64,000 nt of DNA from Acidobacteriota bacterium (lineage in GTDB: Bacteria; Acidobacteriota; Vicinamibacteria; Vicinamibacterales; SCN-69-37). The position numbers and the translations under genes are program-made. A model generated the notes under the pieces. The model was not told the DNA's origin, did not search any database, and was given only the letters and a program-made list of their open reading frames with translations. Positions 45,267-58,638 of the stretch are shown one piece after another (positions within the stretch are counted from its first letter, which is position 1; every line of letters starts with the position of its first letter). The DNA is taken from assembly GCA_020853395.1 (NCBI GenBank), contig JADYYY010000002.1:84609-148608 (forward strand), given 5' to 3'.

Positions 45267-47120
45267 GTGTCGTTGTGGCGTCGCCCATCCACGCGCATCG
45301 GTGCGCTCGCGATCGTCTGTCTCGTCGCGCACGTGGGGCTCGCGCACGGCGCGGGCGTTGGACGTCACGCTGCGGACCTGCCGCTGCTCGTCGCGTTGGC
45401 CGCCGGAGGTGGCCCGCTGGTCGCGCAGCTTGCGCGTCACGCCTGGCGCGGCGAGTTCGGCGCCGACCTGCTCGCCGGCATCTCGATCCTGACCTCGATC
45501 GCGCTCGGCGAGTACCTGGCCGGGACGATCGTCGTCCTCATGCTCTCGGGCGGACAGGTCCTCGAGGACTACGCGATCGGTCGCGCCTCTTCCGCCCTGA
45601 CGGCCCTCGCGGCGCGGATGCCCACCATCGCGCACCGCGTCGACGCGCAGGCGACGAGCGACGTGCCGGTCGAGGCGCTCGCGGTCGGCGACGTCGTCGA
45701 GATCCACCCGCACGAGATCTGCCCGGTCGATGGCGTGGTGATCGCCGGCCACGGGCGGATGGACGAGTCCTATCTCACCGGAGAGCCGTTCGAGATCACG
45801 AAGACGCAGGGCTCGCCGGTGATCTCCGGCGCGCGAAATGGCGACGCGCGGCTCACCGTTCGCGCCACGCGGCGCGCAAACGACTCGCGCTATGCCCGCG
45901 TCATGGCCGTCATGCGCGACGCCGAGCAGCGGCGTCCGCGCCTTCGACGGCTCGGCGACGAGCTGGCCATCGTCTACACGCCGCTCGCCGTCGGGCTCGC
46001 GGGAGCGGCCTGGCTCGTCACCGGCGATCCCGTCCGCTTCCTCGCCGTCGTGGTCATCGCGACGCCCTGTCCCCTGCTGATCGGGATCCCGGTCGCCATC
46101 ATCGGCGCGGTGTCGCTCGCGGCGCGCCGCGCGATCATCGTCAAGAGCCCCGTCGTGCTCGAGCAGATCACGAGTTGCCGGACCGCCATCTTCGACAAGA
46201 CGGGCACGCTGACGTACGGCGAGCCGGAGCTGGTCGAGCAGACGACGGCAGACGGCCAGGATGCGCGCGAGATGCTGGCGCTCGTCGCGAGCGCGGAGCG
46301 CTACTCCAAGCATCCGCTGGCGCGCGCGATCGCCGCGGCCGCCGCGAAGGCCGGGTTCGCGCTGAGCGACGCCACCGAGGTGAGCGAGCCGCCGGGCGCG
46401 GGCATGCGTGCCGTCGTTCGAGGCCGGCGGATCCACCTGCAGAGCCGGCGCGCGTTCGTGGCGTCGCCCGCCGGCGCCGGCGTGGCGCTGCCGGCCGAAG
46501 CGGGCGGGCTGGAGTGCCTGGTCGCGATCGACGGCCGCTTCGCCGCGCTCCTGCGGTTCCGCGACGCGCCCCGCGCCGAGAGCCGGGACTTCGTCAGCCA
46601 CCTGGCGCCCGCGCACCACTTCGATCGCGTGATGATCGTCTCGGGCGACCGGCGGGCGGAGGTCGCGTTCCTCGCCGAGCGTGTGGGGATCGGCGCGATC
46701 CATGCCGAGCAGACGCCCGAGCAGAAGCTCGAGCTCGTCCGCCAGGAGACGGCCAGAGCGCGAACGCTCTACGTCGGCGACGGGATCAACGACGCGCCGG
46801 CGATGAAAGCCGCCACCGTCGGCATCGCGCTCGGACGCAACACCGAGGTCACCGCCGAGGCGGCCGACGTCGTCATCCTCGACAACACCCTTCGCAAAGT
46901 GGACGAGGTGCTGCACATCGGACGGCACATGCGGGCGGTCGCCCTGCAGAGCGCGATCGGGGGCATGGCGCTGAGCCTGGCCGGGATGCTGGCCGCGGCC
47001 GCGGGCCTGCTCACGCCCGTCAACGCCGCGATTGGCCAGGAGATCATCGACGTGCTCGCCGTGCTGAATGCGTTGCGTGCCGGCGTCGCCCCGGCCCAGA
47101 TTCAGGACTTCGAACGGTAG
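45267..47120 (+). CDS. Heavy-metal-type P1B ATPase without N-terminal metal-binding domain
   Basis: 617 residues from GTG. The membrane core has the metal-site motif TPCPLL (C268), a CPL rather than the common CPC. The actuator loop is LTGEP where TGES is typical of other P-type ATPases. The phosphorylation loop DKTGTLT (D310), SKHPLA and GDGINDAPAM are intact. No HMA domain or His-rich tail is present at the N-terminus, and there are about six to seven predicted membrane helices. It pumps a transition metal or related cation out of the cytoplasm, but the ion is not assigned. No metalloregulator gene is adjacent. Confidence 0.9.
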   Translation: MSLWRRPSTRIGALAIVCLVAHVGLAHGAGVGRHAADLPLLVALAAGGGPLVAQLARHAWRGEFGADLLAGISILTSIALGEYLAGTIVVLMLSGGQVLEDYAIGRASSALTALAARMPTIAHRVDAQATSDVPVEALAVGDVVEIHPHEICPVDGVVIAGHGRMDESYLTGEPFEITKTQGSPVISGARNGDARLTVRATRRANDSRYARVMAVMRDAEQRRPRLRRLGDELAIVYTPLAVGLAGAAWLVTGDPVRFLAVVVIATPCPLLIGIPVAIIGAVSLAARRAIIVKSPVVLEQITSCRTAIFDKTGTLTYGEPELVEQTTADGQDAREMLALVASAERYSKHPLARAIAAAAAKAGFALSDATEVSEPPGAGMRAVVRGRRIHLQSRRAFVASPAGAGVALPAEAGGLECLVAIDGRFAALLRFRDAPRAESRDFVSHLAPAHHFDRVMIVSGDRRAEVAFLAERVGIGAIHAEQTPEQKLELVRQETARARTLYVGDGINDAPAMKAATVGIALGRNTEVTAEAADVVILDNTLRKVDEVLHIGRHMRAVALQSAIGGMALSLAGMLAAAAGLLTPVNAAIGQEIIDVLAVLNALRAGVAPAQIQDFER

Positions 47121-48949: not shown

Positions 48950-51619
48950 TCAACCTGCCGAGGCGTTCGCACCCGCGGCGGCCGCCTCGTCCGCTTCGCC
49001 GCCCGCTCCACGGCGCTCGAGCAACTCGCGGACCTTCCGGCGCAGCGTCGACGGCACGAAGGGCTTCTGGAGAAACCCGGCCCCGAGCGTCTTGGCGTAG
49101 ACGGCCGTCGACGGATCGCTCGCGTATCCTGACGTGAACAGCACGCACAGATCGGGCCGCAGTTCTCGAAGTCTCGTCACGAGCTCGCGCCCGCCCATCA
49201 CCGGCATGACGACGTCCGTGACGACCGCGTCGATCGAGTCGAGCGCGCTGGCCGCGATGCGCATGGCCTCCTCGCCGTTCTGCGCCTCGAGCACGCGATA
49301 GCCGGCCGCCGCAAGGGCTTCGCGCGCCATGCTGCGCACGGCCTCGTTGTCCTCGACGAGCAGCAGCGTCTCGCCGGTCACGGCCGGCGATGAGGCCGGC
49401 TCGGACACCGCATCCGCCTGCGACGCCGGCGCGCTCGTTCCCGGCAGCGTGATGACGAACGCCGTGCCGAGGTTCGGCGCGCTGTCGACCGAGATCCGGC
49501 CGCCGCTCTGCTGCACGATGCCGTACACGGTCGCCAGGCCGAGGCCGGTGCCGCGTCCTACGGGCTTCGTCGTGTAGAACGGCTCGAAGATGTGCGCGCG
49601 CACCTCGGGCGTCATCCCGCACCCGGTGTCGCCCACCGTGAGCCGCACGTCGTCCGTGCCGGCGTCGCCATCCATCGACGTGGCGATCGTCAGCCGTCCG
49701 CCGTTCGGCATCGCGTCGCGCGCGTTGACCGCGAGGTTGAGCAGCACCTGTGTCAACTGGCCAGGGTCGGCCTTGACGCACCGGATGCCGGGCTCGAGGG
49801 CAAGGACCAGCTCGACCGATTCGCCGACGAGCCGGCGCACCAGGCTTTCGGCATCGATGACGATCGTGTTGAGATCGACGACGACCGGCTGCAGCACCTG
49901 CTTGCGGCTGAACGCGAGCAGGTCGCGCGTGAGCGCCGCGGCATGCCGGCCCGCGCGCTGGACTTCCAATAGATGCGGGTGCGCCGCCGCGGCGGTCGGC
50001 GTCTCGTCGAGCAGCAGATCGGTGTAGCCCAGGATGGCGGTCAGCAGGTTGTTGAAATCGTGTGCGACGCCGCCGGCCAGCCGTCCGATGGCCTCCATCT
50101 TCTGCGCATGACGCAACTGTTCCTCACGCTGCTGCAGAGCACGCGCGGCGTCGTGCCGATCGGTGATGTCGCGCACGATGCCGGTGACGAACCGCTCGGG
50201 ACCGGCGGTCCAGGTCGCCGCCGACACCTCGACGGCGACGCTCGAGCCGTCGCGCCGGCGGGCGCGGTACTCTGCCGTGCGCTGGAGCCAGCCGCTCGTG
50301 CCGGCCAGCACCTCGCTGAACACGCGGGCGGCATCGGCCTGCAGTTCGTCGGGCACGAGCAGCGTGAGCGGCTGCGCGATCGCTTCCTGCTCGGTGTAGC
50401 CGAACAGCCGTTCGGCGCCCGGATTCCAGAACTGGATCGTGCCGTGCGCGTCCACCGAGATGATCGCGTCGTTGGCCGAGTCGGTGATGGCGCGGAACCG
50501 CTCGTACGCGATGTGCAGCTCCTGCGTGCGGGCCTGGACCTGTTCGTGCGAGTCCCTGAGCACGGCCGTCATGTGGTTGAACGCCTGCGCCATGCGCCGC
50601 GTCTCGACGGGCCCGCGCGGGGGCACGTGCCGCTGCCAGCGTCCCGCGGCGATCTCCGTGGCGGCATCCGCGAGATCGCGGATCGGACGCGTGAGGCGGC
50701 GGCCGAACACCACCGTGCTGCCCACGGCGACCACGAGCGTCACGACCGTCAGCCAGCGCAGCGTGGACTCGATGCGCGCGAGGGCCATGGCCGTCGGCGA
50801 CCAGTCCTTCAGCAGCAGCAGCGCGAGATCGCGCTGTGCGGCGTCGAGCACGTCGAAGCGACCGACGTACTGCGCGCCTCCCAGCGGGCGCACGTCGGTC
50901 GCGCCGTGCAGCACGCGCAACGCGTCGGGCTGCGTGCGCACCAACACGTCGAGCGCTTGCCTCGCATCGCCGGTCAGGCTGCTGCCGCACAGGTGCCCGC
51001 ACAGGAAGCTGACCTCGCTGTTCGTGATGGCCGCCAGCTCCGCCGCGACCTGGTCGTCGAACCGGAACGCGGCCGTGAACGACCCGATCAACTCGCGACC
51101 GAACAGCGCGGGTTCGGAGACGACCAGGAACAGATCGGCGCCGAGCAGCGTGATGACGCTGGCCGACGAGCCGCCGACGGCCGCCATGAGCGGGCCCACG
51201 AGCTGGGGAACCGACGCCTGATGCGCGCCGACGCCCGAGCGGCCGAGCCAGCGGCCCGACGCGTCCGTGACGACGCAGAGCTGCGCGCCGAGCTTCGCGC
51301 AGTACTCCGCCGTCATGTGATCGATGGTCGGGGCGTCAGCGGCGACTTCCGGCGCCGCGAGCGAGGCTCGGAAAACCGGCAGATCGACGATCAGCCGCGT
51401 GGCCTTGGCCGCCGCCTGCCGGCGCGTCTCGGTCAGCCGGGTGAACGCGACGTGCGCCGCCGCGAGGTCGTCGGCCGATCGAGCCAGCGAGTAGCGGGTC
51501 ACGATGGCGCGGGTCGCGATCAGCATCGCGGCGAGCGAGAGCACGGCGATGCCAACGATGCTGACGAGCACGCGGGCTTCGAGCCTGGCATGCCACGGGA
51601 TCGCCGAGGGCTGCCGCAT
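48950..51619 (-). CDS. Hybrid sensor histidine kinase with Cys-containing extracytoplasmic domain
   Basis: 889 residues. Membrane helices at about 17-40 and 288-305 enclose a periplasmic sensor with C107, C115 and the cluster CGHLC (207-211). HAMP (about 306-358), PAS (about 370-490), HisKA with phospho-acceptor H in GGVAHDFNNLL (about 520), an HATPase with NLAVNARDAM and GTGLGLATVYG, and a C-terminal receiver (about 755-875, phospho-Asp in VVTDVVMP near 801) follow. It lacks a DNA-binding output, so a phosphorelay or the nearby HD-GYP receiver may be downstream. It is nine bp downstream of the barrel gene in one operon. The Cys/His cluster makes a metal or redox signal plausible. Confidence 0.92.
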   Translation of the reverse strand: MRQPSAIPWHARLEARVLVSIVGIAVLSLAAMLIATRAIVTRYSLARSADDLAAAHVAFTRLTETRRQAAAKATRLIVDLPVFRASLAAPEVAADAPTIDHMTAEYCAKLGAQLCVVTDASGRWLGRSGVGAHQASVPQLVGPLMAAVGGSSASVITLLGADLFLVVSEPALFGRELIGSFTAAFRFDDQVAAELAAITNSEVSFLCGHLCGSSLTGDARQALDVLVRTQPDALRVLHGATDVRPLGGAQYVGRFDVLDAAQRDLALLLLKDWSPTAMALARIESTLRWLTVVTLVVAVGSTVVFGRRLTRPIRDLADAATEIAAGRWQRHVPPRGPVETRRMAQAFNHMTAVLRDSHEQVQARTQELHIAYERFRAITDSANDAIISVDAHGTIQFWNPGAERLFGYTEQEAIAQPLTLLVPDELQADAARVFSEVLAGTSGWLQRTAEYRARRRDGSSVAVEVSAATWTAGPERFVTGIVRDITDRHDAARALQQREEQLRHAQKMEAIGRLAGGVAHDFNNLLTAILGYTDLLLDETPTAAAAHPHLLEVQRAGRHAAALTRDLLAFSRKQVLQPVVVDLNTIVIDAESLVRRLVGESVELVLALEPGIRCVKADPGQLTQVLLNLAVNARDAMPNGGRLTIATSMDGDAGTDDVRLTVGDTGCGMTPEVRAHIFEPFYTTKPVGRGTGLGLATVYGIVQQSGGRISVDSAPNLGTAFVITLPGTSAPASQADAVSEPASSPAVTGETLLLVEDNEAVRSMAREALAAAGYRVLEAQNGEEAMRIAASALDSIDAVVTDVVMPVMGGRELVTRLRELRPDLCVLFTSGYASDPSTAVYAKTLGAGFLQKPFVPSTLRRKVRELLERRGAGGEADEAAAAGANASAG

Positions 51620-51628
51620 GACGCGACC

Positions 51629-52636
51629 TCAGAATCGCAGCGTCTGCGTCACGCCGACGTCAATCGCGGTGTGCCGGCCGGTGCGCAGCGCCTGCGGCTG
51701 GTGGACGACGTTGACGAACACCGCGAGCGGCCGGAGGACGCGCAGCCGGGCCCCTGCGGTGTACCGGCGAAGGAAGCTCGAGCGGCTGTCCGCGAGGTAG
51801 TCGAGCCGGTCGAGCCGCGCCACGGCCGTGACGGGGCCCATGCCCACGCGGTGCACGATGACGTCGACGTACCCGCCGCGGGTGCTCGTGCCGTCGAAGG
51901 GCTGGCCCGTGATCCACTCGCCGCGCAGCATCACGCCGCCGCGCATCCAGCGCGCGTCCACGCCGGTGAAGCGCATGCGCCCCGACACCCACGGGCCTTC
52001 GCGGTAGGCTTCCGAGTCGAGACGGCTGACGCCGAGGACCAGCGCGCGGTAGACGCCTTGCGCCCGCACGACGACGTCGCGGGTGCGCGGCCGTGGATCG
52101 TCGCCAGGATCGCCCGGCGTGCCGAAGCTGGCTTCGACGGTGAGCGACGCACGGCCCGCGAGCACCGAGACGCCGTGCTCGAGCGCGGTGTTCGACAAGG
52201 CCCAGTTGCCGCCGTAGCGGATCAGCGGCGCGCGCGCGAACCCGAAGTAGCCGTGATCGCTTCGTCCCGAGATGCCGAACGGCGTGCGGTATCGTCCGCC
52301 GCGCACGCCGAAGATCAGGCCGCGCGCCGTGGCCGTGCGCTCGACGTACGTCTCCATCACGTGAAGCCGGTCGTCGTACGGGAACGACGTGCCGAAGGCG
52401 TCGGAACCGGTTACGCCCGTCGCGGCCCAGGTCGCCTCGACTTGCGCGCGCCAGCCGCGGCCCACGGCTCCGAACAACCGGACTTGCACGCCGCCCGCCG
52501 TGGCCTCATCTGTCGAATGGCCGACGGTCATGTCGGTTTCCCGTGTCAGCGACACCTGAGCGCCAGCCGGCGCGGGACCCATCAGGATGAGGGCGACGGC
52601 GCTTCCGGCGGCGAGCGTCCAGCCTCCGGACGTCAC
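51629..52636 (-). CDS. Outer-membrane beta-barrel (porin-like) protein
   Basis: 335 residues. Signal peptide about 1-27 (ending APAGAQ); the rest alternates short amphipathic strands and turns and ends in the aromatic residue of VGVTQTLRF, as in outer-membrane barrels. The segments GLIFGVRGGRYRTPFGISGR and RLDYLADSRSSFLRRYTAGARLRV resemble porins of the DcaP/OprP-like sort. GTG 52636 overlaps the cupredoxin gene stop (GTGA). It may admit the ligand of the cupredoxin or the kinase; no specificity can be read. Confidence 0.78.
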   Translation of the reverse strand: MTSGGWTLAAGSAVALILMGPAPAGAQVSLTRETDMTVGHSTDEATAGGVQVRLFGAVGRGWRAQVEATWAATGVTGSDAFGTSFPYDDRLHVMETYVERTATARGLIFGVRGGRYRTPFGISGRSDHGYFGFARAPLIRYGGNWALSNTALEHGVSVLAGRASLTVEASFGTPGDPGDDPRPRTRDVVVRAQGVYRALVLGVSRLDSEAYREGPWVSGRMRFTGVDARWMRGGVMLRGEWITGQPFDGTSTRGGYVDVIVHRVGMGPVTAVARLDRLDYLADSRSSFLRRYTAGARLRVLRPLAVFVNVVHQPQALRTGRHTAIDVGVTQTLRF

Positions 52637-53214
52637 GGCCACGACACCTCGAGCGGCGCCCCGGACGACGGATCGAACTCGCCGTTCAGGACGGGCCCGC
52701 CGGGACGCCACGCGTGGTAGCGCGTCGGCGCCGCGGGGAGGTTCGGGATCACGAACCGCCCGCCGCGATCGGACACCGCGTAGTAAGCCGTCTCGAGGAC
52801 CATGACGTACGCGGCCATCTGCGGATGGATGTTGCAGAACACCCGGCTGAGGCCCGGCCGATCGAACGGCACTTCCTTCACCATGCCGACCGGGTAGAGT
52901 CCCAGGTCGAACTTGCGGCTGTCGTGAAACGAGAAGACGTTGTGAAAGACGCGGTCGTGATTCGGAAACTTGACGCGCGTCCCGACGCGCACGGCGAGCA
53001 CGTGCGGGAAGAACTGCATATCGCGCTGGTTCAGCACCGCGTCCGCCTGGGACGAGGGGGCCGGCGGCTGGCCGTCGGCAACGTCCAGCCAGATGACGGC
53101 GTCGGCCACCGGCCGGCCTGACGCGAGCGCGAGGCCGGTGAGATTGTTCGCGACGAGCGCGCGTGATGGCAACAACGCCACGAGCGCCAGCGCGGCCGCG
53201 AGAGGACGCCTCAT
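52633..53214 (-). CDS. Periplasmic cupredoxin-like (methylamine-utilisation-annotated family) protein
   Basis: 193 residues. Signal peptide about 1-22. A plastocyanin-like fold carries candidate copper ligands H86 and H91 (FPNHDRVFHNVFSFHD), then C127, H130 and M133 or M138 (FCNIHPQMAAYVMV). The final part (YYAVSDRGGRFVIPNLPAAP) is a carboxypeptidase-regulatory-like strand pair. The family is often labelled methylamine utilisation protein by old annotation, but no mau gene is here. First gene of an operon with the barrel and the hybrid kinase, so it may present copper or a redox state to the sensor. Confidence 0.83.
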   Translation of the reverse strand: MRRPLAAALALVALLPSRALVANNLTGLALASGRPVADAVIWLDVADGQPPAPSSQADAVLNQRDMQFFPHVLAVRVGTRVKFPNHDRVFHNVFSFHDSRKFDLGLYPVGMVKEVPFDRPGLSRVFCNIHPQMAAYVMVLETAYYAVSDRGGRFVIPNLPAAPTRYHAWRPGGPVLNGEFDPSSGAPLEVSWP

Positions 53215-53343
53215 GCCGCGACCACGTAGCAAGGCGCATGCCCGGCGATCTGCTGCCGGATGCGACAACGCGTTGCGCGTCACCGCGCAGTCCTGCGCGA
53301 CCGTCGTGTGAGTGCCAGCTCGGGTGGAGTAACATCACGCGCG

Positions 53344-54342
53344 ATGTTGTCGCCCTCGCGGTCGGGACGTGCGGCGCCAGGCGGAACGATCCTCGTCGTC
53401 GACGATCTGGACGCCAACCTCAGCCTGCTCGATCACATCCTGTCCGCGCAGGGCTATCGCGTGGCCCGCGCCCGCGACGGCGAGGAGGCGCTCGACCTCG
53501 TCATGCGCGAACGTCCCGACCTCGTGCTCTCGGACGTGCGCATGCCGAAGTGCGACGGCTTCGATCTGTGCCGCGCGCTGAAGTCGTCGCCGGAAACGCG
53601 GCTCACGCCGGTCGTGCTGATGACCGGCGCGGCCGAGGCGGCCGACCGCATCAAGGCGATCGAAGCCGGCGCCAACGACTTCGTGACCAAGCCGATCGAT
53701 CAGGCCGAGCTGAAGGCGCGGGTCCGATCGCTCATGCAGCTCAAGCGGTACACCGACGAGCTGGACTCGGCCGAGGAGGTGCTGCGCAGCCTCGCGCTCA
53801 TGATCGAGGCGCGCGATTCCTACACCGACGGCCATTGTCAGCGCCTTTCACGCTACGCCACCGAGCTCGGGCTGAAGCTGAATCTGGAGGAGGACGACCT
53901 GCAGGCGCTCGCGCGCGGCGGCTACTTCCACGACATCGGCAAGATCGCCGTCCCGGACGCCATCCTGTTGAAGCCCGGACCGCTCACGGCGCGTGAGCAG
54001 GAGCGCATGCGCGAGCATCCGGTCGTCGGCGACCGGCTCTGCGGCAACCTGCGCGCGCTCGGCCGCGTGCGCGCCATCGTCCGCCATCATCACGAACGGC
54101 TCGACGGCAGCGGCTACCCCGACGGGCTCCGCGGCGACCAGATCCCCCTGCTGGCGCAAGTCATCGGCGTCGTCGACGTCTACGACGCGCTCACGACGGT
54201 GCGGCCCTATCGCGCGCCGCTCGATCAGCGGCTGGCGCTGGCCGAGCTGCAGCGCGAGGCCGGCCGCGGCCTCTTCCGTCGGGATCTCGTCGAGGCGTTC
54301 GTCGAGACGCGGCAGACCGGCGCGCCCGTGCCGGAACTGTAA
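53344..54342 (+). CDS. HD-GYP response regulator (c-di-GMP phosphodiesterase)
   Basis: 332 residues. The receiver domain (about 14-130) has D20/D21, phospho-acceptor D64 (LVLSDVRMP), MTGAA and VTKPID. The HD-GYP domain has HCQRLSRYA, FHDIGKIAVPDAIL, MREHPVVGDRL, HHERLDGSGYPDGLRGDQIP and the VVDVYDALTTVRPYR signature. All metal ligands and the GYP loop are intact, so it should degrade cyclic di-GMP to GMP when activated. It is divergent from the cupredoxin/kinase operon with 129 bp between starts; the hybrid kinase is a candidate partner. Confidence 0.95.
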   Translation: MLSPSRSGRAAPGGTILVVDDLDANLSLLDHILSAQGYRVARARDGEEALDLVMRERPDLVLSDVRMPKCDGFDLCRALKSSPETRLTPVVLMTGAAEAADRIKAIEAGANDFVTKPIDQAELKARVRSLMQLKRYTDELDSAEEVLRSLALMIEARDSYTDGHCQRLSRYATELGLKLNLEEDDLQALARGGYFHDIGKIAVPDAILLKPGPLTAREQERMREHPVVGDRLCGNLRALGRVRAIVRHHHERLDGSGYPDGLRGDQIPLLAQVIGVVDVYDALTTVRPYRAPLDQRLALAELQREAGRGLFRRDLVEAFVETRQTGAPVPEL

Positions 54343-54464: not shown

Positions 54465-54860
54465 ATGGAGCTCCTCAAGTACACCGCGGTCCCCTCCCCC
54501 GCTCAGATGGACCGGCGACGTACCCCGAGGCTCACGCCGACCGGGGAAGTACACGCCGAGGTCTTCGGCACGAGCGCGCGCATCACGATCACCGACGTCA
54601 GCCATCACGGCATGAAGGTGCAGGCCACGGCGCCGTTCTGGCCCGGGACGCGGCACGTCATCCGCGTCTCCGCCGGACACGCCGCGCCCATCGACCTGCT
54701 CGCGACCGTGGTCCACTGCCAGCGTGCCGTCACCGACTGCGGCGCGCCCTGCTTCGTCGTCGGCTGGCAGTTCGTGCCGGGCACGCCGGGCACCGATGAA
54801 GCCGCCATGCGCCTCGTCGACCTCGTGACCGGCGACGGACCGTCCGGCCTCGCCTCCTGA
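54465..54860 (+). CDS. PilZ-domain protein
   Basis: 131 residues from ATG 54465 (117 from ATG 54507, where the PilZ start MDRRRTPRL begins). The RRxxPR motif, ITDVSHHGMKV (the D/NxSxxG motif with an extra His) and VVGWQFVPG define a single PilZ fold, a cyclic di-GMP receptor. It lies just after the HD-GYP gene but has its own sigma-54 promoter. Given that promoter, the second Met, with a longer leader, may be the real start. Probably controls pili, flagella, or matrix. Confidence 0.85.
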   Translation: MELLKYTAVPSPAQMDRRRTPRLTPTGEVHAEVFGTSARITITDVSHHGMKVQATAPFWPGTRHVIRVSAGHAAPIDLLATVVHCQRAVTDCGAPCFVVGWQFVPGTPGTDEAAMRLVDLVTGDGPSGLAS

Positions 54861-55032: not shown

Positions 55033-55971
55033 ATGCTGCATCCGCTTCGACCGACGCTCGTCGGCGTGCTCGTACTGTGTTCGCTCGTCTGGATGGCGCC
55101 CGGCGATCTGAGGGCGCAGGCCGACACCCGGCGAATCTACGTGTCGGTGCTCGACAAGGACAGCAAGCCCGTGCTCGACATGCAGGGCGCGGAGTTCGAG
55201 GTAAAAGAGGGCGGCAAGGCCGTGTCGCTGGGCGACGTGAAGCTGGCCGCCCGGCCGGTGCGGGTGGCGCTGATCATCTCGGATCGCGGGACGGGTCAGT
55301 TCCAGGGCGCGGCGCTCCGCTTCGTCGAAGCGGTCCTCGGCCACGGCGAAGTCGCGATCACCGGCATCTCGACGCAGCCCGAGCGCTTCTCCGATTACTC
55401 CGACAGCGTGGACGTCCTGCGCGAGGGGCTTCTGCGGATCGGCCGGCGCGCGATGGCGAGCGGCGCGAGCGCTCAGCTCGTGGAAGCGATCCTCGAGGCG
55501 ACCAAGGACATCGACCGCGAAGGCTACCGGCCCGCGGTTGTCATCATGCGCAACGGCGGGGAGGGGCCGACACCGGTCCGCGCCGAGACCGTGCGCGAAG
55601 CCATCCGCCGCACCGGTGCGGTGCTCTACGCGATCTCGACCACCGGCACGCAAGGGATCCAGCGCGGCAACCCGACGACCCCGGCGACCGCGGCGGGCGT
55701 CGCGCAGGCCGCGGCGCAGTCCGAGGTGCAGGAAGGCATGCTCACGCTCGGCACGATCCTCGGCGAGGGGTCGAAGGACTCGGGCGGCTATCACGATCAG
55801 GTCGTCGCGACGACGCTGATTCCGACGATGCAGAGGCTCGCGGCCGAACTGGTGAACCAGTACGAGATCACCTACACGTTGCCGGCAGGAGTCAAGCCGA
55901 ACGATCGCGTGTCCGTGTCCTCGAAGCGCAAGGGGCTGACGGTCCGAGCGCCGACGCGGATTGCCAATTGA
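55033..55971 (+). CDS. Secreted VWFA-like protein of the PQQ dehydrogenase operon
   Basis: 312 residues. A signal peptide (about 1-29) is followed by IYVSVLDKDSKPVLDMQGAEFEVKEGG, the acidobacterial VWFA-related front domain, and a von Willebrand A-like domain whose metal site is degraded (ALIISDRGTGQ in place of DxSxS). The rest follows the family (GYRPAVVIMRNGGE, LVNQYEITYTLP). It is the first gene of a unit with a diheme cytochrome (58 bp gap) and a PQQ dehydrogenase, so it may be an assembly or scaffolding factor. That role is inference. Confidence 0.8.
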   Translation: MLHPLRPTLVGVLVLCSLVWMAPGDLRAQADTRRIYVSVLDKDSKPVLDMQGAEFEVKEGGKAVSLGDVKLAARPVRVALIISDRGTGQFQGAALRFVEAVLGHGEVAITGISTQPERFSDYSDSVDVLREGLLRIGRRAMASGASAQLVEAILEATKDIDREGYRPAVVIMRNGGEGPTPVRAETVREAIRRTGAVLYAISTTGTQGIQRGNPTTPATAAGVAQAAAQSEVQEGMLTLGTILGEGSKDSGGYHDQVVATTLIPTMQRLAAELVNQYEITYTLPAGVKPNDRVSVSSKRKGLTVRAPTRIAN

Positions 55972-56029
55972 TCGGCTCGGGCAGGCCCGCCGCGCCGGTG
56001 GCGCCACAGGACCAGGAGTACGTGTCTTC

Positions 56030-56965
56030 ATGCGTGTGAGACGAATCCTCAGCGGCGCCGGAAGTCTGGCGCTCGTCGCCGGCCTCGCGCTGCCGATGAG
56101 CGCGCCATCGGAGGCGGCGCAGAACGCACCGGCGACGCCGGCCGCGCCGGCGGCGCGCGGTGGACGGCAGGCCGGCCCGCAGGCGCCGGCCGGCGGCGGC
56201 CGCGGTCGCGCGACGTTTCCGGCGCAGCAGCGTCCGCCTGCCGACCCGGCGCTCGTCGCGCGCGGCCAGAGCCTCTACAGCGTGTCGTGCACGAGCTGCC
56301 ACGGCGGCGATCTGCGCGGCGGCCAGCTCGGCGGCCCGAACCTGCTGCGATCGCCGGTCGTGCTCGCCGACGATCTCGCCACGCTGCTCCAGCCGATCCT
56401 GCAGGGCAGCCGCGCGGAACGCGGGATGCCGGCGATTCCGCTCCCGCCCGATGCCGTGAACGCCGTCGCGGCGTACCTCCACAGCGTCGTGGCACAGAGC
56501 CGCGGCCAGGGCGCACCGCCGCCCGGGCCTCCCGTCGTCCTCAACGTGCTCGTCGGCGATCCGGCCGCGGGCGCCGCGTACTTCGCCGCGAAGTGCAGCA
56601 CGTGTCACTCGCCGACCGGCGATCTGCAGGGGCTCGCCTCGCGCGTGCCGGATCCGAAAGCGCTGCAGAACCTCTGGGTGGCGGGCGGCGGCGGCCGCGG
56701 TGCCGCCGCGTCTCCCCGCCGCATCGTCACCGCCACGGTCACGCCGGCGTCGGGGCCGGCGGTGTCCGGACGGCTCGTCAAGATCGACGACTTCATCGTG
56801 ACGCTGGCGCTCGGGGACGGGCGACTGCGCAGCTTCGGCCGCGAGCGCGAAGACGTGCCGCGCGTCGAGATCCGCGACCCGCTCTCGGCGCATCGCGATC
56901 TGCTCCGCGTCTACACCAACAAAGACATGCACGACGTCACGGCGTACTTGGCGACTCTGAAATGA
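56030..56965 (+). CDS. Diheme cytochrome c
   Basis: 311 residues. Signal peptide about 1-30; an Ala/Pro/Gly-rich linker; first heme site C87-x-x-C90-H91 (SCTSCHGGDLRGG) in a typical c domain with methionine candidate near 133 (GMPAIPL). The second heme site is C189-x-x-C192-H193 (KCSTCHSPTGDLQG), in a domain extended by beta strands. It should accept electrons from the PQQ dehydrogenase that overlaps its stop (ATGA) and pass them to the respiratory chain in the periplasm. Confidence 0.92.
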   Translation: MRVRRILSGAGSLALVAGLALPMSAPSEAAQNAPATPAAPAARGGRQAGPQAPAGGGRGRATFPAQQRPPADPALVARGQSLYSVSCTSCHGGDLRGGQLGGPNLLRSPVVLADDLATLLQPILQGSRAERGMPAIPLPPDAVNAVAAYLHSVVAQSRGQGAPPPGPPVVLNVLVGDPAAGAAYFAAKCSTCHSPTGDLQGLASRVPDPKALQNLWVAGGGGRGAAASPRRIVTATVTPASGPAVSGRLVKIDDFIVTLALGDGRLRSFGREREDVPRVEIRDPLSAHRDLLRVYTNKDMHDVTAYLATLK

Positions 56966-58638
56966 CCCGCACACGATTGCTGTTCGCGCTCGCACTCCTG
57001 TCGACCCCGATGCTGCTCTCCGCGCAGGGCGGTGGCATTGCTCCCGAGCAGCTCGCCGCCCCGCTCGGCGACTCGTGGCCAACCTATTCCGGCGACTACT
57101 CCGGCCGCCGCTACAGCGCGCTGAAGGAGGTCGACACCAGCACCGTGCGCCATCTTTCGCTCGCCTGGATGAGCCGCATGCCGGCCGGCTCTGCGACGCC
57201 CGGCCGCGGCGGCGGCGCGGCGATGCAGGTGGGCGGTTTCGGCAGCGGCGACTTCCCAGCCGGCTCGGCGCCGACGGTCAAAGGCACGCCGCTCATGGTG
57301 GACGGCACGCTCTACGTTTCGGCCCCGGACAATGCCTGGGCGGTCGACGCGCGCGATGGGCGCCTGCTGTGGCACTACTTCTGGAAGACGCGCGGCGGCA
57401 CGCACATCGCGAACCGCGGGCTCGGGATCTGGAACGATTTCCTCTACATGGTGACGCCCGACAACTACCTCGTGTCGCTCGACGCGAAGACGGGCAGGGA
57501 ACGGTGGAACAAGGTCCACGCGGATTTCAACCAGCAGTACTTCTCGACGACCGCGCCGATCGTCGCCGGCAATCACGTGCTCGTCGGGACGGGCAATGAT
57601 CTCGACTCACCCGGCTACATGCAGTCGTTCGATCCGGTCACCGGCGACGTCCAGTGGCGCACGTACCTCGTGCCGATGAACGCCGGCGATCCCGGCCTCG
57701 AGACCTGGCCGAGCCTCGAGGCGGCACGCTACGGGGGCGCGCATCCGTGGCTGCCGGGCGTCTTCGATCCCGAGACGCGGCTGTACATCTTCGGCACCGG
57801 GAACCCGACGCCGGCCTACACGCCGGGGCGCGGTGAGGGGGACAACCTGTACACGTGCTCGCTCGTCGCGCTCGACGTGGACACCGGGAAGATGGCGTGG
57901 CACTTCCAGACGTCGCCGCACGACACGCACGACTGGGACTCGGCCCAGACGCCGATTCTGATCGACGCGGTCGTCAACGGCCGCCCGCGGAAGCTGGTCT
58001 CGACGGCCGCGCGCAACGGCTACTTCTACACGGTCGACCGCGTCACGGGTGAACCGGTCGTGACGGTGCCGTACGGCCTCACGACCAACTGGGGCGTACA
58101 CGTGCGCCCGAACGGCACCGTGCAGCGCGATCCCGACAAGGATCCGATCATTCCTGGCGCCATCGTCTCGCCGAACGCATCCGGCACCATCAACTGGGAG
58201 CCGCCGGCGTACAACCCGAATACGAAGCTCTTCTACGTGTCGGAACGGAACGTCTTCTCGATCTTCTACCTGACGGATCCCGATCCGAGAGGATCCATGG
58301 GGCTCGGCGGCCACGAGAAGATCGACGTGGGCACCGGCGGCAACTTCCTGACCGCCGTCGATCCGACCACCGGGCGCATTGCCTGGCGCCGGCCGTACGT
58401 CGGCGCCACCGGGCTCGCGGGCGGCGGTGGCGGGCTGTTGACCACGGCCGGCAACCTCGTCTTCACGAGCGACGCAGGCGGCAACTTCGTCGCCTACGAT
58501 GCGGCCACGGGCGCGCCGCTGTGGCACACGCGAATCGGCACCGCCACGAACCCGCCGATCACGTACCGGCTCGACGGCCGGCAGCACGTGCTCGTGGCGG
58601 TCAACGACACGCTGTTCGACTTCGTGCTGAACCCGTGA
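56962..58638 (+). CDS. PQQ-dependent dehydrogenase (quinoprotein)
   Basis: 558 residues. A signal peptide (about 1-21) is followed by an eight-bladed propeller with quinoprotein tryptophan-docking repeats (WPTYSGDYSGRRYSALKEV, DARDGRLLWHY, DAKTGRERWNK, TGKMAWHFQTSPHDTHDWD, TGAPLWHTRIGT). Length and WHFQTSPHDTHDWD fit the methanol/ethanol dehydrogenase group. I did not find a clear adjacent Cys-Cys disulphide ring, and the lanthanide-marker Asp cannot be fixed without alignment. It oxidises an alcohol, or possibly a sugar. It is coupled to the diheme cytochrome by ATGA. No pqq biosynthesis genes are in the window. Confidence 0.93.
   Translation: MTRTRLLFALALLSTPMLLSAQGGGIAPEQLAAPLGDSWPTYSGDYSGRRYSALKEVDTSTVRHLSLAWMSRMPAGSATPGRGGGAAMQVGGFGSGDFPAGSAPTVKGTPLMVDGTLYVSAPDNAWAVDARDGRLLWHYFWKTRGGTHIANRGLGIWNDFLYMVTPDNYLVSLDAKTGRERWNKVHADFNQQYFSTTAPIVAGNHVLVGTGNDLDSPGYMQSFDPVTGDVQWRTYLVPMNAGDPGLETWPSLEAARYGGAHPWLPGVFDPETRLYIFGTGNPTPAYTPGRGEGDNLYTCSLVALDVDTGKMAWHFQTSPHDTHDWDSAQTPILIDAVVNGRPRKLVSTAARNGYFYTVDRVTGEPVVTVPYGLTTNWGVHVRPNGTVQRDPDKDPIIPGAIVSPNASGTINWEPPAYNPNTKLFYVSERNVFSIFYLTDPDPRGSMGLGGHEKIDVGTGGNFLTAVDPTTGRIAWRRPYVGATGLAGGGGGLLTTAGNLVFTSDAGGNFVAYDAATGAPLWHTRIGTATNPPITYRLDGRQHVLVAVNDTLFDFVLNP

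Follow-up and report, generated by a model that had tools for sequence, protein, structure and literature searches.

Organization of the locus

We analysed a 64,000-nt stretch of DNA from an Acidobacteriota bacterium of the order Vicinamibacterales (contig JADYYY010000002.1; hereafter the window), in which three minus-strand genes for a cupredoxin, an outer-membrane barrel and a hybrid histidine kinase diverge from a gene for an HD-GYP regulator. The cupredoxin gene (52633..53214; 193 aa, signal peptide) has the 4 bases GTGA of its stop in common with the GTG start of the barrel gene (51629..52636; 335 aa, signal peptide, C-terminal Phe), and 9 bp separate the barrel stop from the start of the kinase gene (48950..51619; 889 aa). 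On the plus strand, the REC-HD-GYP response regulator gene (53344..54342; 332 aa) begins beyond a divergent intergenic region of 129 bp (53215..53343). The original prediction had described three coupled minus-strand genes with a 4-bp overlap and a 9-bp gap, and an HD-GYP gene 129 bp away on the opposite strand, and all of these coordinates are exact. It did not mention the gene for a PilZ-domain protein (54465..54860, plus strand; 131 aa) that follows 122 bp past the HD-GYP gene.

By its ligand pattern, the periplasmic protein is a predicted type-1 copper protein. The four ligands H91, C127, H130 and M133 occur in cupredoxin order within the family motif HNVFSF...FDLGxYPxG...FCNIHPxM; they are invariant in a wide alignment (A2) and were kept in 14 of 15 members of the three-gene family described below. 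Pfam matches are weak, both to the plastocyanin-type Copper-bind family (E 8e-4, 20.2 bits, slightly below the cut-off of 21.2) and to CarboxypepD_reg, and the nearest solved proteins, all distant, are the cupredoxin domains of copper nitrite reductases and amicyanin. Relatives in Burkholderiales and Novosphingobium are annotated as "methylamine utilization protein". No methylamine dehydrogenase genes were found in the window operon or at the loci of these annotated relatives, and the likeness to amicyanin and methylamine utilization is one of shared name only.

The barrel protein has no Pfam match. Its predicted structure has 16 strands, with a mean predicted local distance difference test score (pLDDT) of 77 and a predicted template modelling score of 0.75, and matches the folds of OmpM1 (E 7e-13), OmpU and OmpF with template modelling scores of about 0.6. 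We therefore class it, from the model, as a predicted general-porin-type 16-stranded outer-membrane protein with a signal peptide. Two other candidate relatives were compared with it: no homology to DUF3034 proteins was detectable, and homology to an approximately 400-aa protein of more distant kinase-NtrC loci was weak (probability 55%), so that neither was accepted.

The kinase is ordered as a transmembrane segment, a periplasmic double Cache domain (residues about 40–275), a second transmembrane segment, HAMP, PAS, HisKA (H520), HATPase and REC (D802), and all five domains from HAMP to REC have Pfam matches. The sensor was modelled with a pLDDT of 90 as a double Cache domain whose closest solved folds are Tlp3, DctB and LuxQ. 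The Pfam family dCache_3 scored below its cut-off for the window sensor and above it for the orthologues at loci L081 and L083.

Recurrence of the three genes

The three genes, with the same 16-strand porin, occur together again at 13 or more further loci. Other genomes of this order have orthologous cupredoxins (about 50–64% identity), followed by the same barrel and sensor. Among 15 loci of the window's type, the barrel was present in 14, the cupredoxin in 13 and a sensor-type gene in 13, and these were the only recurring gene families. Barrel homologues with 39–49% identity occupy the same position in the other loci. Neither copper-resistance genes nor oxidoreductases recur beside them.

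Using patterns derived from the trio's own cupredoxins, we scanned 84,980 species genomes and obtained 80 cupredoxin loci, 78 of which include a homologous sensor gene; the two that lack it (L086 and L094) are cut by contig ends. The sensor gene is on the opposite strand in 5 of the 78. Conversely, of 50 matches to a sensor profile in 60 related genomes, 41 lay less than 2.5 kb from a cupredoxin gene, where about 0.15 would be expected; because the profile was derived from module members, this figure measures the linkage of this sensor type and not of all Cache sensors. Profile comparison showed the sensors of three related module groups to be homologous. These sequence comparisons show that the trio is conserved as a genuine unit, beyond what chance would give, and that the pairing of cupredoxin with Cache sensor extends across lineages in several bacterial phyla.

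Genes outside the window were called with a simple codon-model script. A number of records are metagenome bins of doubtful name, which makes the Armatimonadetes label of L081 uncertain; isolates are the source of L145, a Myxococcota strain, and of the Pseudomonadota plasmids. Two locus numbers duplicate genome contigs (L084 is the G020 contig and L082 the G022 contig). The sequences of L134, titled Bordetella parapertussis, and of L093 (Acidimicrobiia; the same as the G046 contig) look acidobacterial, and the titles are probable binning or naming errors.

Exchange of sensor outputs

The output joined to the trio sensor varies. It is a hybrid kinase in the window, in G003, the genome of the closest relative, and in L084, L088, L089, L091, L092 and L093; with the same barrel and cupredoxin, it is GGDEF-EAL in L083, L085 and L090; and in L081 an HD-GYP domain is fused directly to the sensor in a 587-aa protein (dCache_3-HAMP-HD_5). 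The sensors of G016 (L040 7363-8691) and L087 (8475-10256) stop after a short remnant, DHp-like or PAS, and lack an ATPase domain, hence have no obvious catalytic output. In a tree of the three concatenated trio proteins, L081 groups with the window and G003 (support 92/98), and at least two changes are needed to account for the catalytic outputs. From these comparisons, the sensor output is interchangeable among kinase, GGDEF-EAL and HD-GYP.

More distant modules extend the range. Over 20 loci in the order have a histidine kinase with an NtrC-type regulator; one of them is a second, paralogous module in the window genome (L052 7773-12757, on G000:C10) that consists of the approximately 400-aa barrel-like protein, a cupredoxin, a sensor kinase and an NtrC-type regulator. 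Other outputs are a kinase with two receivers, a Ser/Thr kinase (L106, L151) and a SpoIIE phosphatase (L145, L155); in L136, L141, L146, L149 and L157, an adenylate cyclase with a similar HAMP/Cache sensor lies on the opposite strand beside the cupredoxin. The Burkholderiales and Novosphingobium modules begin with DUF3034 and truncated globin, followed by cupredoxin and dCache_3-HAMP-GGDEF-EAL. These loci (L074–L078) are on megaplasmids; L076, from Comamonas, has no globin, and L078 is unannotated and was read from gene calls only. They resemble the window in having a homologous cupredoxin directly before a homologous sensor, there with a GGDEF-EAL output, but differ in having a DUF3034 protein in the porin's place, an extra globin and a one-component output.

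At the kinase-NtrC loci, a sigma-54-like element precedes the first gene after NtrC in 16 of 25 cases (p about 1e-8 by Fisher test in comparison with other genes, for a position picked after inspection). In two examples (L041 12954-13289 and L046 5622-6020) the product of that gene is a small cupredoxin with a CxxxCGxxHxxM (CuA-type) motif; in one it is a different cupredoxin and in one a barrel-like protein. Gene clustering placed a family that includes the small CuA-motif cupredoxins near 18 of the 25 loci. This suggests a role for the related modules in controlling copper and electron-transfer proteins, which bears on the window only indirectly.

The HD-GYP gene and the link to c-di-GMP

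HD-GYP proteins are enzymes that break down the messenger cyclic di-GMP (c-di-GMP). The window protein matches REC and HD_5 in Pfam and has receiver residue D64 and the motifs HDIGK at 196, HHHE at 248 and GYP at 257; it is thus a REC-HD-GYP protein with catalytic motifs and a putative c-di-GMP phosphodiesterase. The genome has five PilZ matches; the PilZ protein beyond the HD-GYP protein is one of them (30.5 bits, cut-off 22.5) and a possible c-di-GMP receptor.

HD_5 genes are scarce in the two genomes in which one adjoins the trio cupredoxin: two are present in the genome of the window, a soil bacterium (99.9% complete), and one was found in G003 (87% complete). The probability of such adjacency by chance is about 0.1%. 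The two neighbouring HD-GYP proteins are 78% identical, and since the more distant flanking genes are not the same in the two genomes, the pairing with the cupredoxin is not merely part of a shared long-range gene order. In G003 the intergenic region measures about 346 bp and has little sequence in common with the 129 bp of the window, and a conserved divergent promoter was rejected for want of conserved intergenic sequence.

The trio is also linked to c-di-GMP independently of this neighbour. The fused HD-GYP domain of L081 is 42% identical to the window protein and the two are not nearest relatives, so L081 represents a separate link and not the same gene after fusion. At a more distant locus (L211, on G018:C99), the cupredoxin, sensor and HD-GYP genes run in the same direction across an assembly gap and are followed by the barrel gene, the HD-GYP being apparently fused to the sensor. 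Overall, a link between the trio and c-di-GMP is well supported by these sequence relationships.

Elsewhere in the window, 45267-47120 (plus strand) encodes a P-type ATPase with a TPCP motif of the metal-transport type and no Pfam match to an N-terminal metal-binding domain, and 55961-58638 (plus strand) holds a gene for a cytochrome c with two CxxCH motifs and then a reading frame for a quinoprotein-like dehydrogenase of the pyrroloquinoline quinone type.

A model for envelope sensing

We propose that the locus encodes a dedicated envelope-sensing module. The porin-type channel would admit a signal to the periplasm, either copper itself as an ion or a small molecule that is redox-active or binds copper. 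The type-1 copper protein, through its metal or redox state, would dock on the double Cache domain or pass the signal to it, in a step that would resemble LuxP acting with LuxQ. The state of the kinase would then determine whether the HD-GYP protein, encoded divergently, is phosphorylated on its receiver. This protein would degrade c-di-GMP, with the outcome possibly read by the PilZ protein encoded next to it. With no Hpt domain in the kinase and no free Hpt proteins, the model requires that HisKA pass its phosphoryl group straight to the HD-GYP receiver; the kinase's own receiver would act as a brake or sink. We assign this sequence of events, from porin to c-di-GMP, a probability of roughly 0.52.

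The original prediction was of a copper- or redox-responsive route to c-di-GMP breakdown. Its c-di-GMP half is well supported by the GGDEF-EAL and HD-GYP domains carried on the same sensor at L083, L085, L090 and L081; for the copper half the evidence is divided, with four conserved cupredoxin ligands in favour and, on the other side, a set of sensor cysteines confined to two genomes.

Several observations count against the model. Copper-resistance genes, as noted above, do not recur beside the trio. Tyr130 takes the place of the second His ligand in the G003 cupredoxin (L037 2-484; CNIYPQM). Cache domains usually bind small molecules directly, so that the cupredoxin need not carry a ligand. 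In the Pfam scan no Hpt domain was found in the kinase, so that the relay by which hybrid kinases usually reach a separate receiver is incomplete; the genome's sole Hpt match falls on another contig, within a frame of 736 aa, and there is none in G003. The HD-GYP gene adjoins the trio in only two related genomes, the window's and G003, and the orthologues in other trio genomes sit elsewhere, amid unrelated genes, which makes the pairing a feature of the window's lineage. Finally, the outputs of most relatives are kinases that are not tied to c-di-GMP.

The explanation that competes best, although we consider it unlikely, is that the sensor binds an ordinary metabolite entering through the porin, with the cupredoxin a co-expressed electron carrier or copper store and the kinase still controlling c-di-GMP through the HD-GYP protein. 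It would account for the nearest sensor folds, since Tlp3 and DctB are amino-acid and C4-dicarboxylate receptors, and for the general porin fold of the barrel, and cytochromes or further cupredoxins do occur near some related modules. However, the cupredoxin is the sensor's constant companion across lineages and outputs, and no oxidoreductase recurs at the trio loci.

It is more improbable still that the trio alone is the sensing unit, the HD-GYP gene a mere neighbour, and the kinase active through its own receiver or another regulator. Adjacency limited to two genomes, a kinase without Hpt and orthologues in unrelated surroundings all fit this view. Against it, the two genomes have so few HD_5 genes to place, adjacency has been kept while the flanks diverged, and sister loci carry c-di-GMP domains as fusions to the same sensor.

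The sensor cysteines of the window lineage were the basis of the earlier mechanism, and the CGHLC motif and two further cysteines that it named can be read in the sequence as C107, C115, C207 and C211 (50987..51301, minus strand; CGHLC is residues 207–211). The quartet is complete only in the window and in G003, whose kinase lies on another contig, and is absent from 13 other trio sensors; among the 15, C115 is present in 8, C211 in 4, and C107 and C207 in these two alone. The cysteines thus cannot be a general sensing site, and we abandoned CGHLC as a family-wide metal site and retain it as a lineage feature of the window and G003. That they form a thiol or metal switch, making the protein a direct thiol-redox or copper sensor, is very improbable: all four are shared by precisely the two genomes with an adjacent HD-GYP gene, but the distribution just given speaks against the idea, as does the secondary structure of the sensor model, which puts C107/C115 in the first Cache lobe and C207/C211 in a hairpin of the second.

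Relation to known systems and significance

In its output, the proposed module, a hybrid histidine kinase paired with a REC-HD-GYP regulator, resembles RpfC/RpfG. The RpfC protein of xanthomonads has a multi-transmembrane input domain and a C-terminal Hpt domain and answers to diffusible signal factor; the window kinase instead has a periplasmic double Cache input and no Hpt, and a cupredoxin and a porin belong to its unit. In its input, the combination of a double-Cache hybrid kinase and a separate periplasmic partner is possibly akin to LuxP/LuxQ, as the fold similarity of the sensor to LuxQ and the gene linkage would suggest. LuxP is a sugar-binding-type carrier of autoinducer 2, whereas the partner here is a predicted type-1 copper protein and a porin is part of the unit. 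The module is a member of neither system. It also shares with CusS/CopS-type proteins an envelope sensor kinase that is possibly copper-related. In CusRS/CopRS-type copper two-component systems an OmpR-type DNA-binding regulator is encoded with the kinase; the window operon contains neither such a regulator nor copper efflux genes, its neighbours include no OmpR-type DNA-binding regulator, and its kinase is a hybrid with an HD-GYP neighbour.

The nearest published copper/c-di-GMP case that we found is IsmP (PA14_37690) of Pseudomonas aeruginosa, a CHASE4-GGDEF-EAL protein with a periplasmic Cache-like domain on a c-di-GMP enzyme, which binds copper 1:1 in vitro (PMC13277305). IsmP is a single protein that binds copper itself, and the words "cupredoxin" and "operon" are absent from the text of that paper. 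We found no description of the three-gene module in the literature searched, in which subscription papers were covered only in part and DUF3034 is mentioned in just two papers.

More broadly, and tentatively, a type-1 copper protein may serve as the detachable sensing subunit of Cache transducers in several phyla, with a porin as the point of entry, so that one copper or redox front end would feed histidine kinases, c-di-GMP enzymes, Ser/Thr kinases and SpoIIE phosphatases. The module is small and occurs in many lineages with differing outputs. If the proposal is correct, proteins now named for methylamine use or left unannotated would be sensory partners of signalling proteins, and c-di-GMP control would gain a defined periplasmic input. 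It would also offer a testable route for bacterial sensing of copper or redox state beyond the inner membrane, and would define a class of envelope sensor that uses an electron-transfer protein for perception.

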